Shown piece by piece: positions 3,841-23,098 of a stretch of DNA of 64,000 nt. The notes under the pieces are model-generated. The model made no database searches and had not been told where the DNA came from. It saw nothing but the letters and a program-made list of their open reading frames with translations. Within the stretch, counting starts at the first letter, position 1, and the number at the start of each line of letters is the position of its first letter. This DNA comes from Flavobacteriales bacterium. Its GTDB lineage: Bacteria > Bacteroidota > Bacteroidia > Flavobacteriales_C > GCA-002722245. The position numbers and the translations under genes are program-made. The stretch covers positions 124,001 to 188,000 of the forward strand of contig JAHEZM010000003.1 of NCBI GenBank assembly GCA_023251075.1, in the 5' to 3' direction.

Positions 3841-4920
3841 TTACGAGGTGGTTGATGGTTTGGATTTTAGATACTCATAAGCTGGCTTTTCAATGGCATG
3901 ATAAGCCAGCCATGCTACCACCCATAACAACATAAAATTCCTATCGGGGAAAGCATAAATATTCCATAAAACTGAGTTTACAAAATTGATGTGGATGAGG
4001 TAAAAAATGAAAGAGGCGTATCCCATTTGTATCATTAATTTCGTTTGAAGAATTTTCGATAACCATGTTTTTTCTGTTGCTAACCCTAATAACAATATGG
4101 AGATAAAAACAGGCAGCAAGAGATGATTGATAGCTAAGCCAAAAGGATTTTCAAATCCATGAGTCCATATTTCTTTTTGAAGAGGAATCATTGCTATTAT
4201 ACAAAGCACAATGCCTGTTGAGCCAATTAAAGTAGCATGTTTGATTCTGAATAATTTAAAGTTTTTGATTTCTTTTAAATGCAAAGCCAACAATACGCCC
4301 AGCAGGAATTCGAAAAAGCGCCCTTGAAAAGTACTGATGGTGATGGTTAAAGGATCATTAAAGAAACCTTTGGTATTTAAGTTAAGGTAATCCAGAGAAA
4401 AACCTACACCAATACAGAATAAGCTAAATATGAGTAAGGCCGTAAAACATTGAATAATTCCATATCGATGAATGATCCAAAATAGAACAGGTGCTAGGGC
4501 ATAAAACGTAAGTTCTACGGTAAGCGACCAGGATTGTGGAATACCGCTTAAAACAAAGGAAGAGAAATATCCTTTGAGTAAAGAAATATTCAAAAATATT
4601 TCCAATGATCCGGGAGCTGTGGTAAAGCAATATTTAGCTACAATAATTAAAAGATAAACGGGATAAATTCGGGCCAAACGGGTACGTACATATTGCCAAT
4701 AGGCGCTGCGATTCAATTCTATAGTTTTTTCGTAATAATTGTAAGCAATTAAAAACCCACTTAGCACAAAGAAAATGGTCACCCCAATATGCCATTCATT
4801 CAAAAATCGGTTGATGTAATCGGGGAAAGTATTTCTCCAGAATTTGCGGTTATGGTACACAAAAATCATAATAGCCGCTATGGCCCGCAATCCTGTTAAA
4901 GCGCTAAATTTTTGCTTCAT
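3841..4920 (-). CDS. Acyltransferase 3 family membrane protein (OafA/YrhL-like)
   Basis: An integral membrane O-acyltransferase of the acyltransferase-3 family (359 residues). It starts MKQKFSALTGLRAIAAIMIF followed by VYHN, the first-helix pattern with the conserved His (H23). FFVLSGFLIAYNYYEK and SWSLTVELTFYALAP are the other family signatures. About ten hydrophobic helices follow. Such enzymes move acyl groups onto surface sugars or peptidoglycan; the acceptor cannot be told here. I prefer the ATG at 4920 over an in-frame TTG at 4926. It converges with leuS and diverges from the DUF3108 gene. A second, distinct paralogue is at 27070-28140. Confidence 0.9.
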   Translation of the reverse strand: MKQKFSALTGLRAIAAIMIFVYHNRKFWRNTFPDYINRFLNEWHIGVTIFFVLSGFLIAYNYYEKTIELNRSAYWQYVRTRLARIYPVYLLIIVAKYCFTTAPGSLEIFLNISLLKGYFSSFVLSGIPQSWSLTVELTFYALAPVLFWIIHRYGIIQCFTALLIFSLFCIGVGFSLDYLNLNTKGFFNDPLTITISTFQGRFFEFLLGVLLALHLKEIKNFKLFRIKHATLIGSTGIVLCIIAMIPLQKEIWTHGFENPFGLAINHLLLPVFISILLLGLATEKTWLSKILQTKLMIQMGYASFIFYLIHINFVNSVLWNIYAFPDRNFMLLWVVAWLAYHAIEKPAYEYLKSKPSTTS

Positions 4921-5036
4921 ACGCAATGATACAAAAAGCTGGAAAGTTTTCTATAGCATTTAAAGCAACTTTCCTTCAATTGCTGCGTTTTTCATTTGGA
5001 ACGCTTTTTGTACCTATTTCAAAAACAATACTTCTT

Positions 5037-7254: not shown

Positions 7255-7380
7255 ATCTTCTCCCTTTTTTAAAGGGAGAGCGTGAAAGGCAAGAGGGATT
7301 TGTTTTAAGTATTTTGTATTTAAATCCCTCTACCCTAACACCAGCAATTCCGCACTCTCCTTTTAAAAAAGGGAGAAGAT
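7255..7380. repeat. 126-bp nested inverted repeat
   Basis: Outer arms ATCTTCTCCCTTTTTT... (7255-7284) and its complement (7351-7380) surround an inner pair, AGAGGGATTT (7292-7301) and AAATCCCTCT (7323-7332). It lies after the M23 peptidase and before the GbsR-type regulator, where it probably also ends transcription. A single-hairpin relative, TTCTCCCTTT-AGA-AAAGGGAGAA, is at 23076-23098. This looks like a dispersed REP-type element. Confidence 0.8.
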
Positions 7381-7421: not shown

Positions 7422-7445
7422 AACTTTCAAAATATTTTGAAAGTT
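7422..7445. promoter_or_regulatory. Perfect 24-bp palindrome, probable operator of the GbsR/MarR regulator
   Basis: The 24 bases are an exact palindrome with half-site AACTTTCAAAAT. The palindrome covers the candidate -33 box TTTG (7436-7439) of the regulator's own promoter. MarR/GbsR dimers bind palindromes of this size, so autorepression is the simplest reading (inference). A degenerate version precedes the next gene at 7989-8010. Confidence 0.75.
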
Positions 7446-7466
7446 CAAAAACATATTTTATATTTG
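7436..7466 (+). promoter_or_regulatory. Bacteroidetes-type promoter of the GbsR-led operon
   Basis: TTTG (7436-7439), a 19-nt spacer and TATATTTG (7459-7466) match the TTTG / TAnnTTTG consensus with normal spacing. The ATG at 7471 follows only 4 nt after the -7 box, so the transcript should be leaderless or nearly so. The -33 box is inside the palindromic operator. Confidence 0.7.
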
Positions 7467-7470
7467 TTTT

Positions 7471-7974
7471 ATGGAATTACAAGAAGCAAAAAACGAATTT
7501 ATTCAAGCATGGGGTACCTTCGGTAGCGAATGGGGAATCAATCGCACCATGGCTCAAATTCATGCTTTGCTTTTGGTGAGTGCAGAATCATTGAGTACGG
7601 AAGATATTATGGAACAATTGGATGTATCTCGTGGTAATGTAAATATGAATACCAGAGAATTAATTGCTTGGGGGATTGTGTATAGAGTGACTAAAAAAGG
7701 AGAACGAAGAGAGTTTTTTGAGGCTGAAAAAGATATTTATAAAGTGGCCATAAAAATCATGAAAGAGAGAAGGAAAAGAGAGTTGGGACCTGTTTTAGAA
7801 ACATTAAATGAATTGAAGCAAATTAAAAGTAGCGATAAAGAATCAAAAGAATTCAAGCGTGTAATTTCCGATATCAGTGCCTTTGGAGAGAGTACCGACA
7901 AAATGATTGAAAGAATGATTAAGGCAGATGAAAACTGGTTTACCGGTTCATTGATGAGATTTTTGACGAAGTAA
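7471..7974 (+). CDS. GbsR/MarR-family transcriptional regulator
   Basis: A 167-residue winged-helix regulator. TMAQIHALLLVSAESLSTEDIMEQLDVSRGNVNMNTRELIAWGIV (residues 25-69) is the DNA-binding domain, with recognition helix around SRGNVNMNTREL, followed by a wing with KKGERREFF. The long C-terminal helices form the dimer part. GbsR-type proteins sense small ligands and repress nearby operons. Its own promoter is overlapped by a 24-bp palindrome, and a degenerate copy lies between this gene and the desaturase. It leads seven co-directional genes running to 13055. The ligand is unknown; given the targets, a lipid or osmotic signal is plausible (inference). Confidence 0.88.
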   Translation: MELQEAKNEFIQAWGTFGSEWGINRTMAQIHALLLVSAESLSTEDIMEQLDVSRGNVNMNTRELIAWGIVYRVTKKGERREFFEAEKDIYKVAIKIMKERRKRELGPVLETLNELKQIKSSDKESKEFKRVISDISAFGESTDKMIERMIKADENWFTGSLMRFLTK

Positions 7975-7988
7975 TTTTTTTGATAAAA

Positions 7989-8010
7989 AGTTTCAAATAA
8001 AACTGAAAGT
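7989..8010. promoter_or_regulatory. Degenerate second copy of the operator palindrome
   Basis: AGTTTCAAATAAAACTGAAAGT matches 16 of 22 positions of the core of the perfect palindrome at 7422-7445; both outer half-sites (TTTCAA and TGAAAGT) are conserved. It lies 25 bp before the desaturase start, so the regulator may also act on an internal promoter. Confidence 0.5.
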
Positions 8011-8034
8011 ATTGAAAATATAAAAACTATCTCT

Positions 8035-8823
8035 ATGGAAAATAATATTGAAAGGAGTTTAGAAAAAATAGAATGGACCGATCTCCTGGCCCAAAGCAAA
8101 CGAGAAATAATTTTCGAATTACTATTGCCCTTACCTGTTTTTATTGCCGCTGCAGTATTGGTTTATTACGGGTTCTTATGGTTGGCTTTTCCTGTTGCCT
8201 TTATTGCATTTTTGTTAGGGTTGCGTTTGGTTCATGGAGCATTTCATTATTCTTTGGGGTTGAAAAAAACAACTACCGAATGGGTAATGTTTGTAATGAG
8301 TTGTTTAATGTTTATTCCCATTCATTCTGTAAAATTCAATCATTTAATGCATCACAAACATTGTTTAAATGAAATGGACATAGAAGGAAAAAGCGCCAGA
8401 ATGAAATGGTGGCAAGCGTTATTGTATGGTCCTATTTTCCCCTTCGAATTATTTATCAATGCAATGAAAAAAGGAAATATTAAAATTAAAAGATGGATTA
8501 TGTTCGAATTAATTGCTTTAGCTTTTGTTTTAGCTTTAACATTGATCACTGAAAATAAAATACTATTAGAATATATTGTTTTGATGGTGATAGGAGAATG
8601 CCTCACTGCTTTCTTTGCGGTATGGACAGTTCATCACGATTTGGACAAAGAGGATATACAATCTCGAACCATTCGAAAAAAATGGTTTGGAAAAATGACT
8701 TTCAATATGTTTTTTCATTTTGAACACCATCAATTTCCAAAAGTTCCTACCAATCATTTAGAAACTTTAGCCAATAGAATTGATAAAGCAGTACCAGAAT
8801 TAAAATTAAAAGAAGTGATATGA
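8035..8823 (+). CDS. Fatty acid desaturase superfamily membrane protein
   Basis: A 262-residue di-iron membrane enzyme. The histidine clusters are H67/H71 in VHGAFHYSLG, H103-H109 in NHLMHHKHC, H200/H201 in WTVHHD, and H228/H231/H232 in FFHFEHHQFP. Two hydrophobic hairpins surround them (about 30-62 and 150-195). The clusters fit desaturases and hydroxylases of lipids. At 262 residues it is shorter than acyl-lipid desaturases (usually above 300), closer to beta-carotene hydroxylase-like or small FA_desaturase members. The substrate cannot be assigned. First structural gene of the GbsR-led cluster, with a candidate operator just upstream. Confidence 0.88.
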   Translation: MENNIERSLEKIEWTDLLAQSKREIIFELLLPLPVFIAAAVLVYYGFLWLAFPVAFIAFLLGLRLVHGAFHYSLGLKKTTTEWVMFVMSCLMFIPIHSVKFNHLMHHKHCLNEMDIEGKSARMKWWQALLYGPIFPFELFINAMKKGNIKIKRWIMFELIALAFVLALTLITENKILLEYIVLMVIGECLTAFFAVWTVHHDLDKEDIQSRTIRKKWFGKMTFNMFFHFEHHQFPKVPTNHLETLANRIDKAVPELKLKEVI

Positions 8824-8836
8824 AATGAGCCATGAC

Positions 8837-8857
8837 GTGTCACGGTAAACGTGACAC
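8837..8857. repeat. Short intra-operon hairpin
   Basis: A perfect 8-bp stem, GTGTCACG / CGTGACAC, with a 5-nt loop lies between the desaturase and the DCC-domain gene. No T-tract follows, so it is more likely an RNA-processing or stability element, or a small REP unit, than a terminator. Confidence 0.6.
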
Positions 8858-8909
8858 CGATGAGGGTCAGGCGAATTCCATATGACCTTAAAAATAAAAT
8901 TATCTACAT

Positions 8910-9725
8910 ATGAAAACCTCCAATAAAATAATATTCTTCGATAATGGGTGTCGTGTTTGTCGGGCTGGCGCTTCCTTAGTAAGTGGCACTGGTATTTCTG
9001 ATCAGTTGAATCCTTTGCAAACTATTGAAAAATCAATGGTTTGCGATTTGGATAAAACACGTTATTGCAATGAAATTGCGGTACTCGATAAAGAAACTAA
9101 AGAAACACGTTATGGTGTGAAAGGAATGCTGTGGGTGCTGGAAGAAAGAATAGGCAAAATAGTTAATGTTTTTTTGTGGCCCCCTCTTTATTACAGCATC
9201 GATTTTTTGTATCATATTTTTTCCTACAACAGAAAAATGATTGCACCGGTTTACGGAAAAGTAGAAAATGATTGTAAGCCTGAATTCAATTGGACTTACC
9301 GTTTGGTTTATATTTCCCTTTGTGTAGTTATTTCTGTACTCGTTACCTTTTGGATGGGGGAAAGTTTAAGTCATTTAACCTGGTTTAAAATGAATGGTTT
9401 AGCTATGCTTCTTTTTGCCGGAACCGGATGGATAACTCACATTATCATGTTTCCTCTTTTTCGAATTCCTGAAAAAATGGAATATCTCGGACATCTATGC
9501 ACAGTAATGCTTAGCGGAATACTACTACAAGTTCCTTTTCTTATTTATTGTTCCGTTTTTGGAGTAAATGAAATGTTGCTGCTGTTCAGTTTAGTGTTGA
9601 GTGATGTACTAATGATTTACATGCATTTTAAACGAACTAAGTATTTAAATATATCCAATAGCGTTTCTTTTGCCTGGTGGTTTACTTTACATATTACAGC
9701 TTTTGTATCATTATTATTCAATTAG
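8910..9725 (+). CDS. DCC-type thiol oxidoreductase domain fused to a membrane domain
   Basis: Residues 1-110 form a DCC (DUF393) thioredoxin-like domain. IIFFDNGCRVCRAG carries the C14-x-x-C17 redox pair after a beta strand, and the domain closes with FSYNRKMIAPVYGKV. In DCC proteins the start is usually DGxCxxC; here it is D-N-G-C. Residues about 130-271 are five or so hydrophobic helices that I do not recognise, with few polar landmarks. The fusion suggests dithiol chemistry coupled to a membrane substrate or electron carrier (inference). It sits between the desaturase and an SRPBCC protein whose start lies 4 nt after this stop, so it is certainly in the operon. Confidence 0.82.
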   Translation: MKTSNKIIFFDNGCRVCRAGASLVSGTGISDQLNPLQTIEKSMVCDLDKTRYCNEIAVLDKETKETRYGVKGMLWVLEERIGKIVNVFLWPPLYYSIDFLYHIFSYNRKMIAPVYGKVENDCKPEFNWTYRLVYISLCVVISVLVTFWMGESLSHLTWFKMNGLAMLLFAGTGWITHIIMFPLFRIPEKMEYLGHLCTVMLSGILLQVPFLIYCSVFGVNEMLLLFSLVLSDVLMIYMHFKRTKYLNISNSVSFAWWFTLHITAFVSLLFN

Positions 9726-9729
9726 ATTT

Positions 9730-10212
9730 ATGCCTCTAATCATTCTACATACCGAAATTTATGCTCCTCGGGAAATCTGTTTTGATTTATCGAGAAGTAT
9801 GGAAGTCCATGTTTTGTCGATGAAAAAGTACAATGAAAAAATTATTGGCGAAAGAAAATCAGGATTAATTCAGGAAGGTGAAGAGGTGGAGTTTGAGGCT
9901 AAACATTTAGGAATTACACAAACGCACAAAGGAAAAGTGAAAGATGTTCATTTTCCGTTTTCCTTTGTTGATGTAATGGTACAAGGAACTTTTAAATCTT
10001 TGCATCACCATCATTCCTTCCATGAAAAAAATGGAATTACTTTGATGATCGATACTTTTAAATACGAATCTCCATTGGGAATTTTGGGTCGGTGGGCAGA
10101 TCATTTATTTCTTGAAAAATATATGAAAAAATTAATAGAAGGGAGAAATACTTTTATCAAAAAAATGGCGGAGAGTAATGAATGGAAAAATATTTTGAAT
10201 TATGAAGTTTAA
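9730..10212 (+). CDS. SRPBCC-fold ligand-binding protein
   Basis: A 160-residue protein starting MPLIILHTEIYAPREICFDL, the first strand and helix of START/polyketide-cyclase-like (SRPBCC) proteins of the cyclase/CoxG-like group. GILGRWADHLFLEKYMKKLI near the end is the long C-terminal helix typical of the fold. SRPBCC proteins hold hydrophobic ligands in a deep pocket. The start at 9730 is preferred over an in-frame upstream ATG at 9670 that would overlap the previous gene. It overlaps the next gene by 11 bp, a sign of translational coupling. Confidence 0.82.
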   Translation: MPLIILHTEIYAPREICFDLSRSMEVHVLSMKKYNEKIIGERKSGLIQEGEEVEFEAKHLGITQTHKGKVKDVHFPFSFVDVMVQGTFKSLHHHHSFHEKNGITLMIDTFKYESPLGILGRWADHLFLEKYMKKLIEGRNTFIKKMAESNEWKNILNYEV

Positions 10213-10855
10213 AGGTGAATTACATCAGGTAAAGCTCATTAATTTCTCGGTGGAGAAAGAAGAGTTAAATGGATTATTACCCAAAGAATTGAAGTTGTTC
10301 GATTATCACGGAAGGGCTTTGATTTCTATGGTTGATGTACATTTAAAGAATATGAAAATGACTTCTTTTATGCCTTCTTTTTCCTATCGTCATTTAGCTT
10401 TTCGTGTGTTGGTAGATGATACCGAATTTAACCAAGAAGAACCTAAAGGAATTTATTTTTTACAATCGTTTTCTAGTAATCCATTGATGGTGGTGGGAGG
10501 AAATATGATAGCGAATTATCAGTTGAATTTAGCTAAAATAGAATCTAGTTTTAATACCTTGAAAATTCAACAAAAAGATAAATTTCTGCATTATGCTTTG
10601 AGTGGAAGTGATGCCGTAAAAAATGAAGATTTGTTTACCGTAATTAAAAGAATTGATAGAGCCTATGCTGCTAAAAATAATAAAGTGGAAGTAACACGAA
10701 TCACTCGAAAAGAGTGGCCTATTAAACCTGTTTCATTATTGAATTTTGAAACCAATTATTTTAAAACAGCCCGATTGGAAGGAGCTTTCGAAGTAGGTAA
10801 AGTAATTCATTACGTTTGGGAAAAACCTGAATTAGTTCAAAGGAAGTTGTTATGA
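10202..10855 (+). CDS. DUF2071 (YqjF-like) protein
   Basis: A 217-residue cytoplasmic protein of the DUF2071/YqjF group, related in fold to acetoacetate decarboxylase. Features include LNGLLPKELKLFDYHGRALI at the start and a central YRHLAFRVLVDD. Function is unknown for the family; in other bacteria it is found next to DCC, SRPBCC and NAD-binding genes as here, as I recall. It starts inside the end of the SRPBCC gene and overlaps the following SDR gene by 4 bp, so the three are translationally coupled and probably act together. Confidence 0.8.
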   Translation: MKFKGELHQVKLINFSVEKEELNGLLPKELKLFDYHGRALISMVDVHLKNMKMTSFMPSFSYRHLAFRVLVDDTEFNQEEPKGIYFLQSFSSNPLMVVGGNMIANYQLNLAKIESSFNTLKIQQKDKFLHYALSGSDAVKNEDLFTVIKRIDRAYAAKNNKVEVTRITRKEWPIKPVSLLNFETNYFKTARLEGAFEVGKVIHYVWEKPELVQRKLL

Positions 10856-11706
10856 GAATAGTAATTTTTGGTGGTACCGGACAAATTGGTACAATGGTAA
10901 CACAACAATTGATAGCTGCCTATCCAAACGATGAAGTATTGGCATGTTCTCGTTCTGCTCAAGGAAAAAATAAAATTGCATTTAATATTTATCAAAATAG
11001 TTGGAGTGTATTAGGAAAAGTAGATGTGTTGATCAACATCGTTGGAATTATTGAAGAGAAAGGAGAAAACACTTTTGAAAAAGTGCATGTACAATTGGTA
11101 AAAGATATTATTGCAAAGCGCAATGAAATAGGGAATCCCAGAATTATTCATATATCGGTATGTGGCGCCGATACTAAAAGTAAAGCCGAATATGCGCGCA
11201 CCAAGGGAGTAGCAGATGAATTATTAATACAAGAAAAAAATGTGGCCATCGTTCGTCCGAGTTTTGTATTAACTCCAGGAACCGCTATTGTACAAAAAGT
11301 AAATATGGTGATAAAATTAGGCAAAGCAACTTTCGGATTTTTATTTCTTCCCAAACATTTTCTCACTGCAAAATTTCAACCTGTAATGGGAGAGGATGTT
11401 GCGAAAACTATAGTGAAATTAGTTATTTCCAACGATGAAGGGGTTGTTTATACCACTGGTCCTCACGTAATGACATTAGTAGATATGATTGCTTATACTA
11501 AATCGAAATACAAAATTATTGCATTGCCAAAATGGTTGATGCATCCTGTATTTTTATTGCTTACTAAATTCAAAAACCCTTTTATGAATCGCGATCAATA
11601 TTATCTCTTAGCCCAAGATAATATTGCCGATAATTCGAGGATGGAAAAAATACTGGGAAGAAAAGCAAAGGATACAAATGATTTTTGGAAAAGAGAAATT
11701 AAATAA
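10852..11706 (+). CDS. Atypical SDR, NAD(P)-binding epimerase-like protein
   Basis: A 284-residue Rossmann protein: IVIFGGTGQIGTMVTQQLI holds the G-x-x-G-x-x-G nucleotide-binding loop (residues 7-13). VDVLINIVGIIE is the strand-4 region, and HISVCGADTKSKAEYARTKG carries the Y-x3-K-like position (YARTK). The second half, ending in a LMHPVFLLLTKFKN-like segment, resembles NDUFA9/NmrA-type atypical SDRs, which bind NAD(P)H and may be redox sensors or lipid/quinone-linked reductases. It overlaps the DUF2071 gene by ATGA. Substrate unknown. Confidence 0.82.
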   Translation: MRIVIFGGTGQIGTMVTQQLIAAYPNDEVLACSRSAQGKNKIAFNIYQNSWSVLGKVDVLINIVGIIEEKGENTFEKVHVQLVKDIIAKRNEIGNPRIIHISVCGADTKSKAEYARTKGVADELLIQEKNVAIVRPSFVLTPGTAIVQKVNMVIKLGKATFGFLFLPKHFLTAKFQPVMGEDVAKTIVKLVISNDEGVVYTTGPHVMTLVDMIAYTKSKYKIIALPKWLMHPVFLLLTKFKNPFMNRDQYYLLAQDNIADNSRMEKILGRKAKDTNDFWKREIK

Positions 11707-11714
11707 AAAACAAG

Positions 11715-12638
11715 ATGAAAAATATTTGGAATAAAATATCGAATGATTGGAAAGGAGCCTTGTATGCCAATTTAGTGGGATGTATTCTTTGTGTATTCGC
11801 CACATTATTATCTGAACAGGTTAGTGAAATGAGAGGCTTGATGGTTTTTTCAGAATTTTTTATTGTGCCTTTCATCATGGGAATATTGTGTGTGAAATTT
11901 CTCAACGAAGATGAATTATCGGGAAAAAAATTATTTGTTGTAGCGATTCAGGTTTTTGCTATTACCTTGGCATGGGCTGTATTTATATTGGGCGAAGGAT
12001 ATATTTGTTTGCTGATCGTTTCTCCTGTTATTATTGCTTGTTTGTATGCGGGTGCTTTATTGGGAAGACTTTTGTATAACCGACATTTAGATCGTTTTAA
12101 AAGTAGCATCATAGGAGTATTGTTGGTGGTGTATTTGTTGGATATTATTTTCACACATTCTATACCTTATGAAGTGGGAGATACCCTACTGGTTAATGCT
12201 CCACCCTCTAAAGTTTGGAACAATGTTGTTGCTTTTGATGAGGTAGAAGATCCATCTGAATACTGGTTGTTTGATATTGGTTTACCTAAGGTGGTGAAAG
12301 CAACGGTAATCGAAAGAAAAGTAGGTGGTGATAGAAAATGTGTTTTTGAAAATGGCATTGCTTTCGATGAAAAAATTGTGGTGTATGATTCACTCAAAGA
12401 TTTAACTTTTGATATTGTGAAAATGCCAGAAGACCCTGAAATTATTGGGCATATCAATTTGAAACGCGGACAATTTAAATTGAAGGACAATGGCAATGGA
12501 ACAACGACGTTAATAGGTACGAGCTGGTATGATTTAAAAGTATTTCCTGCGTGGTATTATAATATTTGGGCAGAAAGCATTACTCGTGAAGTACATTTGC
12601 GCGCTATGAAACACATTAAAAAATTAAGTGAAAGATAG
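11715..12638 (+). CDS. Membrane protein with C-terminal SRPBCC domain
   Basis: A 307-residue protein. The N-terminal half has four to five hydrophobic helices (about residues 12-30, 38-56, 68-92, 94-112 and 126-146). After SIPYEVGDTLLVNAPPSKVWNNV the C-terminal half follows the SRPBCC pattern: beta strand, helix, GDRKCVFENGIAFDEKIVVY strands, and a last long helix LRAMKHIKKL. It probably binds a lipid-like ligand at the membrane surface (inference). It lies 8 nt after the SDR gene, and its stop touches the next start, so both are in the operon. This is the second SRPBCC domain in the cluster. Confidence 0.75.
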   Translation: MKNIWNKISNDWKGALYANLVGCILCVFATLLSEQVSEMRGLMVFSEFFIVPFIMGILCVKFLNEDELSGKKLFVVAIQVFAITLAWAVFILGEGYICLLIVSPVIIACLYAGALLGRLLYNRHLDRFKSSIIGVLLVVYLLDIIFTHSIPYEVGDTLLVNAPPSKVWNNVVAFDEVEDPSEYWLFDIGLPKVVKATVIERKVGGDRKCVFENGIAFDEKIVVYDSLKDLTFDIVKMPEDPEIIGHINLKRGQFKLKDNGNGTTTLIGTSWYDLKVFPAWYYNIWAESITREVHLRAMKHIKKLSER

Positions 12639-13055
12639 GTGTTTAAATTCATCGTAAAATATTTTCATTTTTTGTCGAAAATCCCTTTTCTGGTTCATTT
12701 TTTTGACGCGATGATGTTGCTATATTCTTTTGTTTTTTATCATTCCCGATTTAAAATTATTTGTTCAGTGGAAGAAGAATTAACGCAATGGAAAGGAATT
12801 AATTTTTCAATGCATCATTTTGGTGGTTTACAAATCAATTATCAAAAAAATGAATTGGGTCATATTCATGGCAATGGTTTGTTAGACGTATATGTAGGGA
12901 GTGAACGCAAAAATTATTTCATTCAAAATTTGCACTGTGAAGATCATCATATTTTAGATAAAAGTAATTCGTGGGTTTCTTTTTGGATTAAAAGAGAAGA
13001 AGATTATAACAAAGCCATAAATATTTTGGCTGAAGTTTATAGAAATCGAATGTAA
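12639..13055 (+). CDS. DUF5519 (luciferase-domain) family protein
   Basis: A 138-residue protein starting at a GTG placed directly after the previous stop codon. The pattern H-x-F-G-G-L...ELGHIHGNGLLDV...H-C-E-D-HHILD-x-S-NSWVSFWIKREEDYNKAI-x-I-L matches the family that databases call luciferase-domain or DUF5519. This family is found in bacteria and fungi, has no known reaction and is not related to light emission by any evidence here. The N-terminal about 40 residues (hydrophobic, FLVHFFDAMMLLYSFVFY) are extra and may anchor it to the membrane. Last gene of the GbsR-led cluster. Confidence 0.75.
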   Translation: MFKFIVKYFHFLSKIPFLVHFFDAMMLLYSFVFYHSRFKIICSVEEELTQWKGINFSMHHFGGLQINYQKNELGHIHGNGLLDVYVGSERKNYFIQNLHCEDHHILDKSNSWVSFWIKREEDYNKAINILAEVYRNRM

Positions 13056-13138: not shown

Positions 13139-13450
13139 ATGTTTATGAAATACACGAAATTAATTTTAGTCGCATTGTTTGTAGTGGTCACTTTTACAGC
13201 CAATGCGCAAACAGAAACTCCGGCAATTAATCACACACAAAAGAAGGAGAGAAAAAGAATAAAACAAGGAGTTGCATCAGGTGAATTGAACAAAGCGGAA
13301 GCAAGAAGGTTGCGAAAAGAGCAGAGAAGAATAGCAAGAATGGAGCAACATGCCAAAGCAGATGGAACAGTAACGAAAGCTGAACGAAGAAGAATTAAGA
13401 AAGAACAAAGGGCAGCAAGCCGTCATATAGTTCGTGAAAAGCATGATTAA
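13139..13450 (+). CDS. Small, very basic exported protein of unknown function
   Basis: 103 residues: a signal peptide (KLILVALFVVVTFTANAQ) followed by a highly charged body, almost entirely Lys, Arg, Glu and Ala. Two similar helical motifs can be seen: GVASGELNKAEARRLRKEQR and ADGTVTKAERRRIKKEQR. Each has an acidic or Gly turn then a Thr/Asn-x-x-Glu helix cap, reminiscent of a degenerate EF-hand-like helix pair. Similar conserved hypothetical proteins occur in other Gram-negative bacteria, as I recall. M3 (ATG at 13145) is an equally good start. A hairpin terminator follows at 13488. Confidence 0.75.
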   Translation: MFMKYTKLILVALFVVVTFTANAQTETPAINHTQKKERKRIKQGVASGELNKAEARRLRKEQRRIARMEQHAKADGTVTKAERRRIKKEQRAASRHIVREKHD

Positions 13451-13487
13451 CACTCGCTTTCCTATAGTATAGATTTAACCTATAGTG

Positions 13488-13520
13488 ATCCTTCTCCAAC
13501 TTGGAGAAGGATTTCTATTT
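13488..13520 (+). terminator. Terminator after the small basic protein gene
   Basis: A 12-bp perfect inverted repeat (ATCCTTCTCCAA at 13488-13499 and its complement at 13501-13512) is followed by TTCTATTTT. It ends transcription ahead of osmC. Confidence 0.75.
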
Positions 13521-13547
13521 TAGCAGCCGAACTAAAATAAAATCTAT

Positions 13548-23075: not shown

Positions 23076-23098
23076 TTCTCCCTTTAGAAAAGGGAGAA
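23076..23098. repeat. Single-hairpin relative of the 7255-7380 element
   Basis: TTCTCCCTTT and AAAGGGAGAA, separated by three bases, reproduce the outer hairpin of the element at 7255-7380. It lies in the convergent gap before the lipoprotein gene at 23126-24022. Confidence 0.7.

Follow-up and report, generated by a model that had tools for sequence, protein, structure and literature searches.

The window analyzed here is a stretch of 64,000 nucleotides from a Flavobacteriales bacterium (positions 124,001 to 188,000 of contig JAHEZM010000003.1, assembly GCA_023251075.1), and it contains a cassette of eight open reading frames (ORFs), headed by a gene for a GbsR-type regulator and all located on the forward strand between window coordinates 7471 and 13055 (Table 1). 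A preliminary description, made from the sequence alone, had placed eight same-direction genes here and proposed them as a single GbsR-controlled unit. Their positions are as first given, with junctions in gene order of +60, +86, +7, -11, -4, +8, and 0 bp, such that the second half shows overlaps of 4–11 bp and gaps of 0–8 bp. We compared the cassette with a sample of 345 Bacteroidia genomes, in which genomes are designated by G numbers (the window's own genome is G000), loci by L numbers, and families by f numbers.

Products of the cassette genes

The regulator is a winged-helix MarR-domain protein that scores above the cut-off for Pfam MarR_2 and matches Mj223 (1ku9) over residues 3–150 (phmmer E 2e-16). 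Orthologues in other genomes are 45–89% identical to it, and a genome search of G000 found no gbsR paralogue. The best NCBIfam match is CudC/GbsR at 48 bits, and this, together with the family name, would favor an osmostress or compatible-solute operon under a GbsR that senses choline or betaine, like that of Bacillus. However, the score is far under the cut-off of 218, and the positions of the GbsR aromatic cage (93, 94, 96, 97, 100, and 101; PMC6207618) fall here, in the register taken from the CudC match, within the stretch KVAIKIMKERR and are not aromatic. No Opu, betaine, or choline genes were recognized near the loci examined, so that both the cage and the betaine/choline linkage of the osmostress sub-group (GbsR, OpuAR, OpcR, and YvaV) are wanting, and the osmotic role implied by the name is very improbable.

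Another relative is CydE of Alishewanella, a GbsR-type repressor of cydAB (encoding cytochrome bd quinol oxidase) that likewise has no aromatic cage and for which the reported inducer is sulfate (PMC6207618). Its target is a quinol-linked respiratory enzyme, and by analogy CydE is a precedent for respiratory instead of osmotic control. CydE adjoins the cytochrome bd genes, whereas none lies beside the window's gbsR; no cyd genes were recognized in the neighborhoods read, and the adjacent cydAB of the CydE subgroup is thus wanting here. In a 2018 survey of the GbsR family the Bacteroidetes genes gave no consistent picture (PMC6207618).

Among the structural genes, the earlier calls of a desaturase, a DCC protein, and a DUF2071 protein, like that of the regulator itself, agree with hidden Markov model (HMM) searches. 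The desaturase matches PF00487 (74 bits), its translation contains the His boxes HGAFH, HLMHH, and HFEHH, and it has no PDB sequence match. The DCC protein (gene 3) scores just below the cut-off for Pfam DCC1-like (26.1 versus 27.8); it has the DxxCxxC motif, and D11, C14, and C17 are almost invariant across orthologues. Gene 5 matches the DUF2071 family PF09844 at 59.5 bits against a gathering score of 27, and its structural model, of moderate confidence (predicted local distance difference test score, pLDDT, of 70; one of five models), is matched by Foldseek to acetoacetate decarboxylase (ADC) and MppR with probability 1.0. An ADC fold is clear from this prediction, in agreement with a published account of the family (PMC4520260).

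The remaining assignments stand in part. Two SRPBCC proteins had been proposed, of which gene 7 has a weak Polyketide_cyc2 (SRPBCC-type) match only and gene 4 has no Pfam, NCBIfam, or PDB match of its own. We retain the SRPBCC label for gene 4 because its counterpart in a relative (L098) gives weak Polyketide_cyc matches, and on a resemblance to such proteins that we presume. Gene 8, first called DUF5519, is named as the PF17648 Luciferase domain by HMM. Gene 6 is an atypical short-chain dehydrogenase/reductase (SDR), as described, and can be placed more exactly: beyond a weak NAD-binding Pfam match, the best 30 PDB matches to its profile are nearly all NDUFA9/39-kDa subunits (best E 1e-27), and the matched chains also include the NAD-dependent epimerase/dehydratase chain 9g83. 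By profile it is therefore a member of the NDUFA9 (complex I 39-kDa) group, although it sits in a regulated cassette and not in a complex I context. Most members of the window's family retain the SDR YxxxK motif, and many relatives have FxxxK. An alternative assignment of gene 6 to YfcH, a family marked by a DUF1731 C-terminus and a TIGR01777 score over 207 bits, was rejected, as the TIGR01777 match is partial and reaches 25.7 bits.

A conserved palindrome at gbsR

A palindromic motif (AACTTTCA-N8-TGAAAGTT) occurs twice at gbsR, once overlapping its promoter and once 3′ of its stop codon. Bacteroidota promoters have the consensus TTTG/TAnnTTTG, and the candidate promoter of this type overlaps site 1 (Table 1). 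The gbsR start codon is only 4 nt past the -7 box, and the mRNA is therefore possibly leaderless; a scan for sigma-70 promoters performed at chance level (28 found, 28.1 expected). Site 1 is present with two or fewer mismatches in 40 of the 40 loci that have this gbsR, being exact over 12 core positions in 25 of them, and site 2 is present at the same threshold in 33 of the 40. Within the loci that were fetched, sites with no more than one mismatch are nearly all beside gbsR, and two of the few exceptions are upstream of the DCC gene (L113 and L115). Genome-wide regulon scans were pattern searches for the motif, with the reversed motif as the control for counts; the exact 16-base motif occurs in 41/345 Bacteroidia genomes compared to 1/345 for the control. 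We regard these patterns as strong evidence, at the level of sequence, that the operator is specific and conserved and that gbsR is autoregulated.

As site 1 overlaps the promoter, and from the behavior of the GbsR family, we infer that GbsR acts as a repressor. In B. subtilis, GbsR is a roadblock repressor and OpcR occludes the promoter (PMC7396694), and these two modes match the positions of sites 2 and 1, respectively. The regulator further resembles the Bacillus GbsR, OpcR, and OpuAR proteins in belonging to the same winged-helix family with A/T-rich inverted-repeat operators, and differs from them in having no aromatic cage, no recognized solute genes nearby, and a conserved operator with an 8-bp spacer.

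The window's own genome contains four sites with zero or one mismatch, of which two are intergenic and both of these are in the cassette, the other two being intragenic. With two mismatches there are 37 sites versus 34 for the reversed control; since this is not in excess of the control, and most of the sites read are intragenic, they were discarded. In this genome the regulator thus seems to control the cassette alone. The earlier proposal of one regulated unit headed by GbsR is supported, and its neighborhood is conserved, as described below.

The unit probably extends beyond gene 8 to a small protein gene, as suggested by conservation of this gene in the corresponding position of a sister species and by the terminator-like hairpin that follows, and the downstream OsmC gene is probably outside it. 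The desaturase-DCC gap (8826–8890) has a G+C-rich hairpin (GTGTCACGGTAAACGTGACAC, 8837–8857) in A/T-rich surroundings, present once in the window, which may be a site of processing or a repeat. Two facing copies of TTCTCCCTTTTTTAAAGGGAGA surround ~100 bp (7258–7377) in the interval from the M23 peptidase gene to gbsR, and a third copy is at 23076–23098; this looks like a small repeat element, and a similar hairpin is found upstream of gbsR in L042. Further to the left, an acyltransferase-like gene (3841–4926) is encoded on the opposite strand, flanked by leuS and a DUF3108-like gene, and is absent from this place in G004 (L004).

Table 1. Features of the GbsR-headed cassette and its flanks, in window coordinates.
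Feature	Coordinates	Strand	Basis or remark
Operator site 1, AACTTTCAAAATATTTTGAAAGTT, perfect 24-bp palindrome	7422..7445	.	Sequence and locus comparison
Candidate Bacteroidota promoter: TTTG 7436–7439, 19 nt, TATATTTG 7459–7466; overlaps site 1	7436..7466	+	Read from sequence
Gene 1, gbsR-type (MarR superfamily) regulator, 167 aa	7471..7974	+	HMM, PDB sequence match; sole copy in genome
Operator site 2, AAGTTTCAAATAAAACTGAAAGTA, imperfect copy directly after gbsR stop, then extra TTGAA half-site	7988..8011	.	Locus comparison
Gene 2, FA_desaturase-family membrane protein	8035..8823	+	HMM and three His boxes; variable-slot gene
Gene 3, DCC thiol-disulfide domain fused to hydrophobic C-terminal half	8910..9725	+	D-N-G-C-x-x-C; core gene
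Gene 4, putative soluble SRPBCC/START-like protein	9733..10212	+	ATG start; originally listed ORF begins further upstream
Gene 5, DUF2071 protein, predicted acetoacetate-decarboxylase-like fold	10202..10855	+	HMM, Foldseek, PMC4520260
Gene 6, atypical SDR, NDUFA9/complex I 39-kDa group by profile	10852..11706	+	Profile search against PDB
Gene 7, hydrophobic N-terminal domain and C-terminal SRPBCC-like domain	11715..12638	+	Weak HMM; adjoins PF17648 in L103, L104, L108
Gene 8, PF17648 'Luciferase domain' (DUF5519-type) protein, GTG start	12639..13055	+	HMM
Small Arg/Lys-rich protein, hydrophobic N-terminus; probable ninth member	13139..13450	+	Kept 3′ of cluster in G004
Intrinsic-terminator-like hairpin plus T run, probable unit end	13487..13523	+	Terminator scan

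Cassette content and operator sites across the Bacteroidia

The preliminary description had made its proposal depend on finding the neighborhood in other genomes, and the core of the cassette recurs across many Bacteroidia families. SDR orthologues are present in 10/10 genomes sampled from the order and occur in several additional families, and neighborhood maps reveal a backbone of GbsR-DCC-(SRPBCC)-DUF2071-SDR in families f1, f20, and f37, with near-minimal versions (GbsR-DCC-DUF2071-SDR) in L048 and L069 (Rhodocytophaga aerolata). The DCC-membrane fusion is found in 39/345 Bacteroidia genomes, and the same GbsR heads the cluster in about 36 of them. As the gene order recurs in many families, the gene cluster is not a chance assembly. 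A search of named organisms with the SDR alignment yielded at least three loci (Rhodocytophaga, Polaromonas, and Rhizobiales), and those in Polaromonas and Rhizobiales have the SDR alone; in f28, most SDR orthologues are without the rest of the cassette, and they were not used in considering function.

The cassette consists of a core (GbsR, DCC, DUF2071 and/or SDR, and often SRPBCC) and a variable slot following gbsR, so that a conserved unit persists from the earlier eight-gene proposal and a fixed set of eight genes does not, the desaturase being outside the core. The slot between gbsR and the DCC gene contains a desaturase, a ~120-aa membrane protein, or a CMAS-family methyltransferase (as in the sister genus), or is empty, and it can also hold a DoxX gene together with an extra DUF2071 gene and a further probable methyltransferase that has no Pfam match. 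In many of the DCC-fusion loci the SDR position is occupied by a true YfcH/TIGR01777 SDR. Genes 7 and 8 occur together again in L103, L104, and L108, and in two other families a desaturase follows GbsR, in L156 and in L121, the latter with the order (GbsR-desaturase-DCC-DUF2071) of the window; each of the window's eight gene families therefore has a counterpart behind this regulator in other loci. The closest relative (G003, L040) lacks genes 4, 7, and 8, and its DCC and SDR genes are joined by two divergent DUF2071 genes, a DoxX-like gene, and a probable methyltransferase gene, indicating that the cassette content turns over fast within the genus.

In several relatives the operator is also located away from the cassette. 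We identified the genes at these trans sites by hand from their neighborhoods, and by eye the sites are plainly biased to genes of quinone metabolism and respiration. The operator, exact or with one mismatch, lies upstream of mqnE in five genomes (three of f39, two of f2) and of the DAHP synthase gene in three f39 genomes. Two f2 genomes have it before mqnC (the L186 protein reaches 407, below the cut-off of 428, and that of L162 is named from its sequence only), and three f2 genomes (L181, L182, and L188) have it before a gene for an ECF sigma factor, with the futalosine hydrolase gene (mqnB) next in two. Further sites are upstream of nuoF, a polyprenyl diphosphate synthase gene, a YfcH SDR gene, a TetR-UbiB-type (kinase) operon, a CcmF-like gene in G119, a COQ7-family gene in G326, and genes for the type II NADH dehydrogenase NDH-2 in G350 (f2, with Pfam NDH2_C) and G278 (f35, named from sequence only). 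Several genes of the ~120-aa membrane family also have the operator upstream. The members of this family noted under the operator (L153, L159, L173, L189, L202, L217, L234, and L235) are often tandem pairs with no Pfam match where tested, and the family is also found under the operator in trans in G005, of the window's own family.

Site counts exceed the reversed control in both f2 (22 versus 5) and f39 (10 versus 1), and the few sites that are unexplained or intragenic (L155, L158, L204, and others) are probably chance matches. The f2 and f35 genomes carry a ~50%-identical orthologue of the window's regulator where this was measured, and the f39 protein is a paralogue with 36% identity. In f39 this paralogue shares an operon with a COQ7-family gene; sites before mqnE and DAHP synthase are seen in all three genomes (L166–L171 and L193–L199), and the f39 paralogue likely heads a menaquinone regulon. 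The earlier suggestion that the cassette acts on membrane lipids or isoprenoids is supported as to its direction: in relatives, genes for menaquinone and polyprenyl synthesis and for NADH:quinone enzymes have this operator upstream.

These targets also bear on the possibility that the cassette is an operon for fatty-acid or phospholipid modification with a lipid-sensing regulator, in which the quinone genes are merely co-regulated as membrane components. The FA_desaturase genes of the window, L121, and L156 and the CMAS-family methyltransferases of the sister genus and L174 would fit this explanation, but both gene types are variable and missing from most loci, no fatty-acid role is known for the DCC/SDR/DUF2071/SRPBCC core, and the trans targets (mqn genes, nuoF, NDH-2, and DAHP synthase) are not phospholipid genes. 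We consider it unlikely.

A possible role in quinone handling

We give roughly even odds to the reading that the cassette is one autorepressed operon that acts on membrane isoprenoid quinones or on quinone-damaged lipid, and the transfer of a quinone function from the related regulons to the window is, as an argument by analogy, equally finely balanced. We infer the binding of GbsR to the palindrome, the class of effector, the quinone substrate, and the step of each protein, and the scheme would run as follows. GbsR would bind site 1, which covers the -33 element of the gbsR promoter, and site 2, ~565 bp further downstream and ahead of the first structural gene. It would occlude the promoter at site 1 and act as a roadblock or form a loop at site 2, and both gbsR and the genes that follow would be repressed in this way. 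An effector reporting quinone or respiratory state would bind GbsR and release the repressor, and the operon would be made. Its products would then act in the membrane on quinone-damaged lipid or on isoprenoid quinones, in this genome presumably menaquinone. The DCC-membrane protein would serve as thiol-disulfide redox partner and the SRPBCC pair would hold or shuttle a hydrophobic ligand in a COQ10-like manner, with the NDUFA9-type SDR binding NAD(P)H, the DUF2071 and luciferase-domain proteins binding or acting on a ring or carbonyl intermediate, and the variable desaturase, methyltransferase, and COQ7-type proteins adapting the lipid. The repressor would control the cassette in the majority of its carriers and, in some lineages, quinone supply and NADH:quinone enzymes as well. 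A broader formulation, in which a single GbsR repressor of the Bacteroidia senses quinone or respiratory state and governs quinone supply together with a cassette that protects, modifies, or recycles membrane quinones, is put forward tentatively, as somewhat short of probable.

Several observations weigh against a quinone function. No cassette enzyme has a known quinone reaction, and DUF2071 proteins, although alike in fold to the acetoacetate decarboxylase superfamily, are reported to differ in that the catalytic Schiff-base lysine is not conserved (PMC4520260). The AlphaFold2 model of the DCC-membrane protein, from two input sequences, has a pLDDT of 46. In the window's own genome there is no credible operator at quinone genes with zero or one mismatch, and the link is through relatives, where the clearest targets (mqnE, DAHP synthase, and COQ7) lie in f39 with its 36%-identical GbsR, and the one-mismatch trans sites of f2 include some chance matches (five expected from the control). 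The likeness to the futalosine pathway (MqnB, MqnC, and MqnE), whose genes have the operator in f39 and f2, also has its limit in the window's species, which has no good MqnC and has a MenD-like ORF, and therefore seems to use the classical menaquinone pathway.

A further point on this side is a DPRP/cryptochrome-like photolyase gene just 5′ of gbsR-DCC-YfcH, in the same direction, in four f40 genomes (L102, L103, L104, and L108). It fits a photo-oxidative cassette responding to light or singlet oxygen, in which membrane lipids or pigments damaged by light are repaired or remodeled and the regulator senses a damage product. The CMAS-like methyltransferase of the sister genus is in keeping with this explanation, and YfcH/SRPBCC/CFA sets presumably resemble light-induced clusters, which we treat as a lead only. 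However, the photolyase genes do not have their own operator; it lies between the photolyase gene and gbsR, such that co-regulation of the photolyase is not required. Most loci, including the window, have no photolyase gene, and the operators in trans mark quinone and respiration genes instead, so a light-stress role appears improbable.

Alternatively, the cassette might serve in general detoxification as a MarR-type operon, with a xenobiotic quinone or aromatic compound as its target; MarR superfamily regulators often sense aromatic ligands, and the cluster includes DoxX- and DCC-type proteins. Operators in trans at housekeeping quinone biosynthesis and complex I genes would be unusual for such a regulon, and the window's regulator has no cysteine, which excludes thiol-based quinone sensing as far as the sequence can tell; we think this explanation quite unlikely.

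An operon acting on membrane quinones or quinone-damaged lipid is thus the reading that we favor. We found no published account of the cluster in the open-licence literature searched (on DUF2071, GbsR, and menaquinone/futalosine regulation), and, although the regulator family is already known, its Bacteroidia regulon and the cassette appear to be undescribed there. The conserved operator gives the Bacteroidetes GbsR group a testable regulon, and it links DUF2071, luciferase-domain/DUF5519, DCC-membrane fusion, and membrane-SRPBCC proteins to menaquinone and NADH:quinone metabolism.

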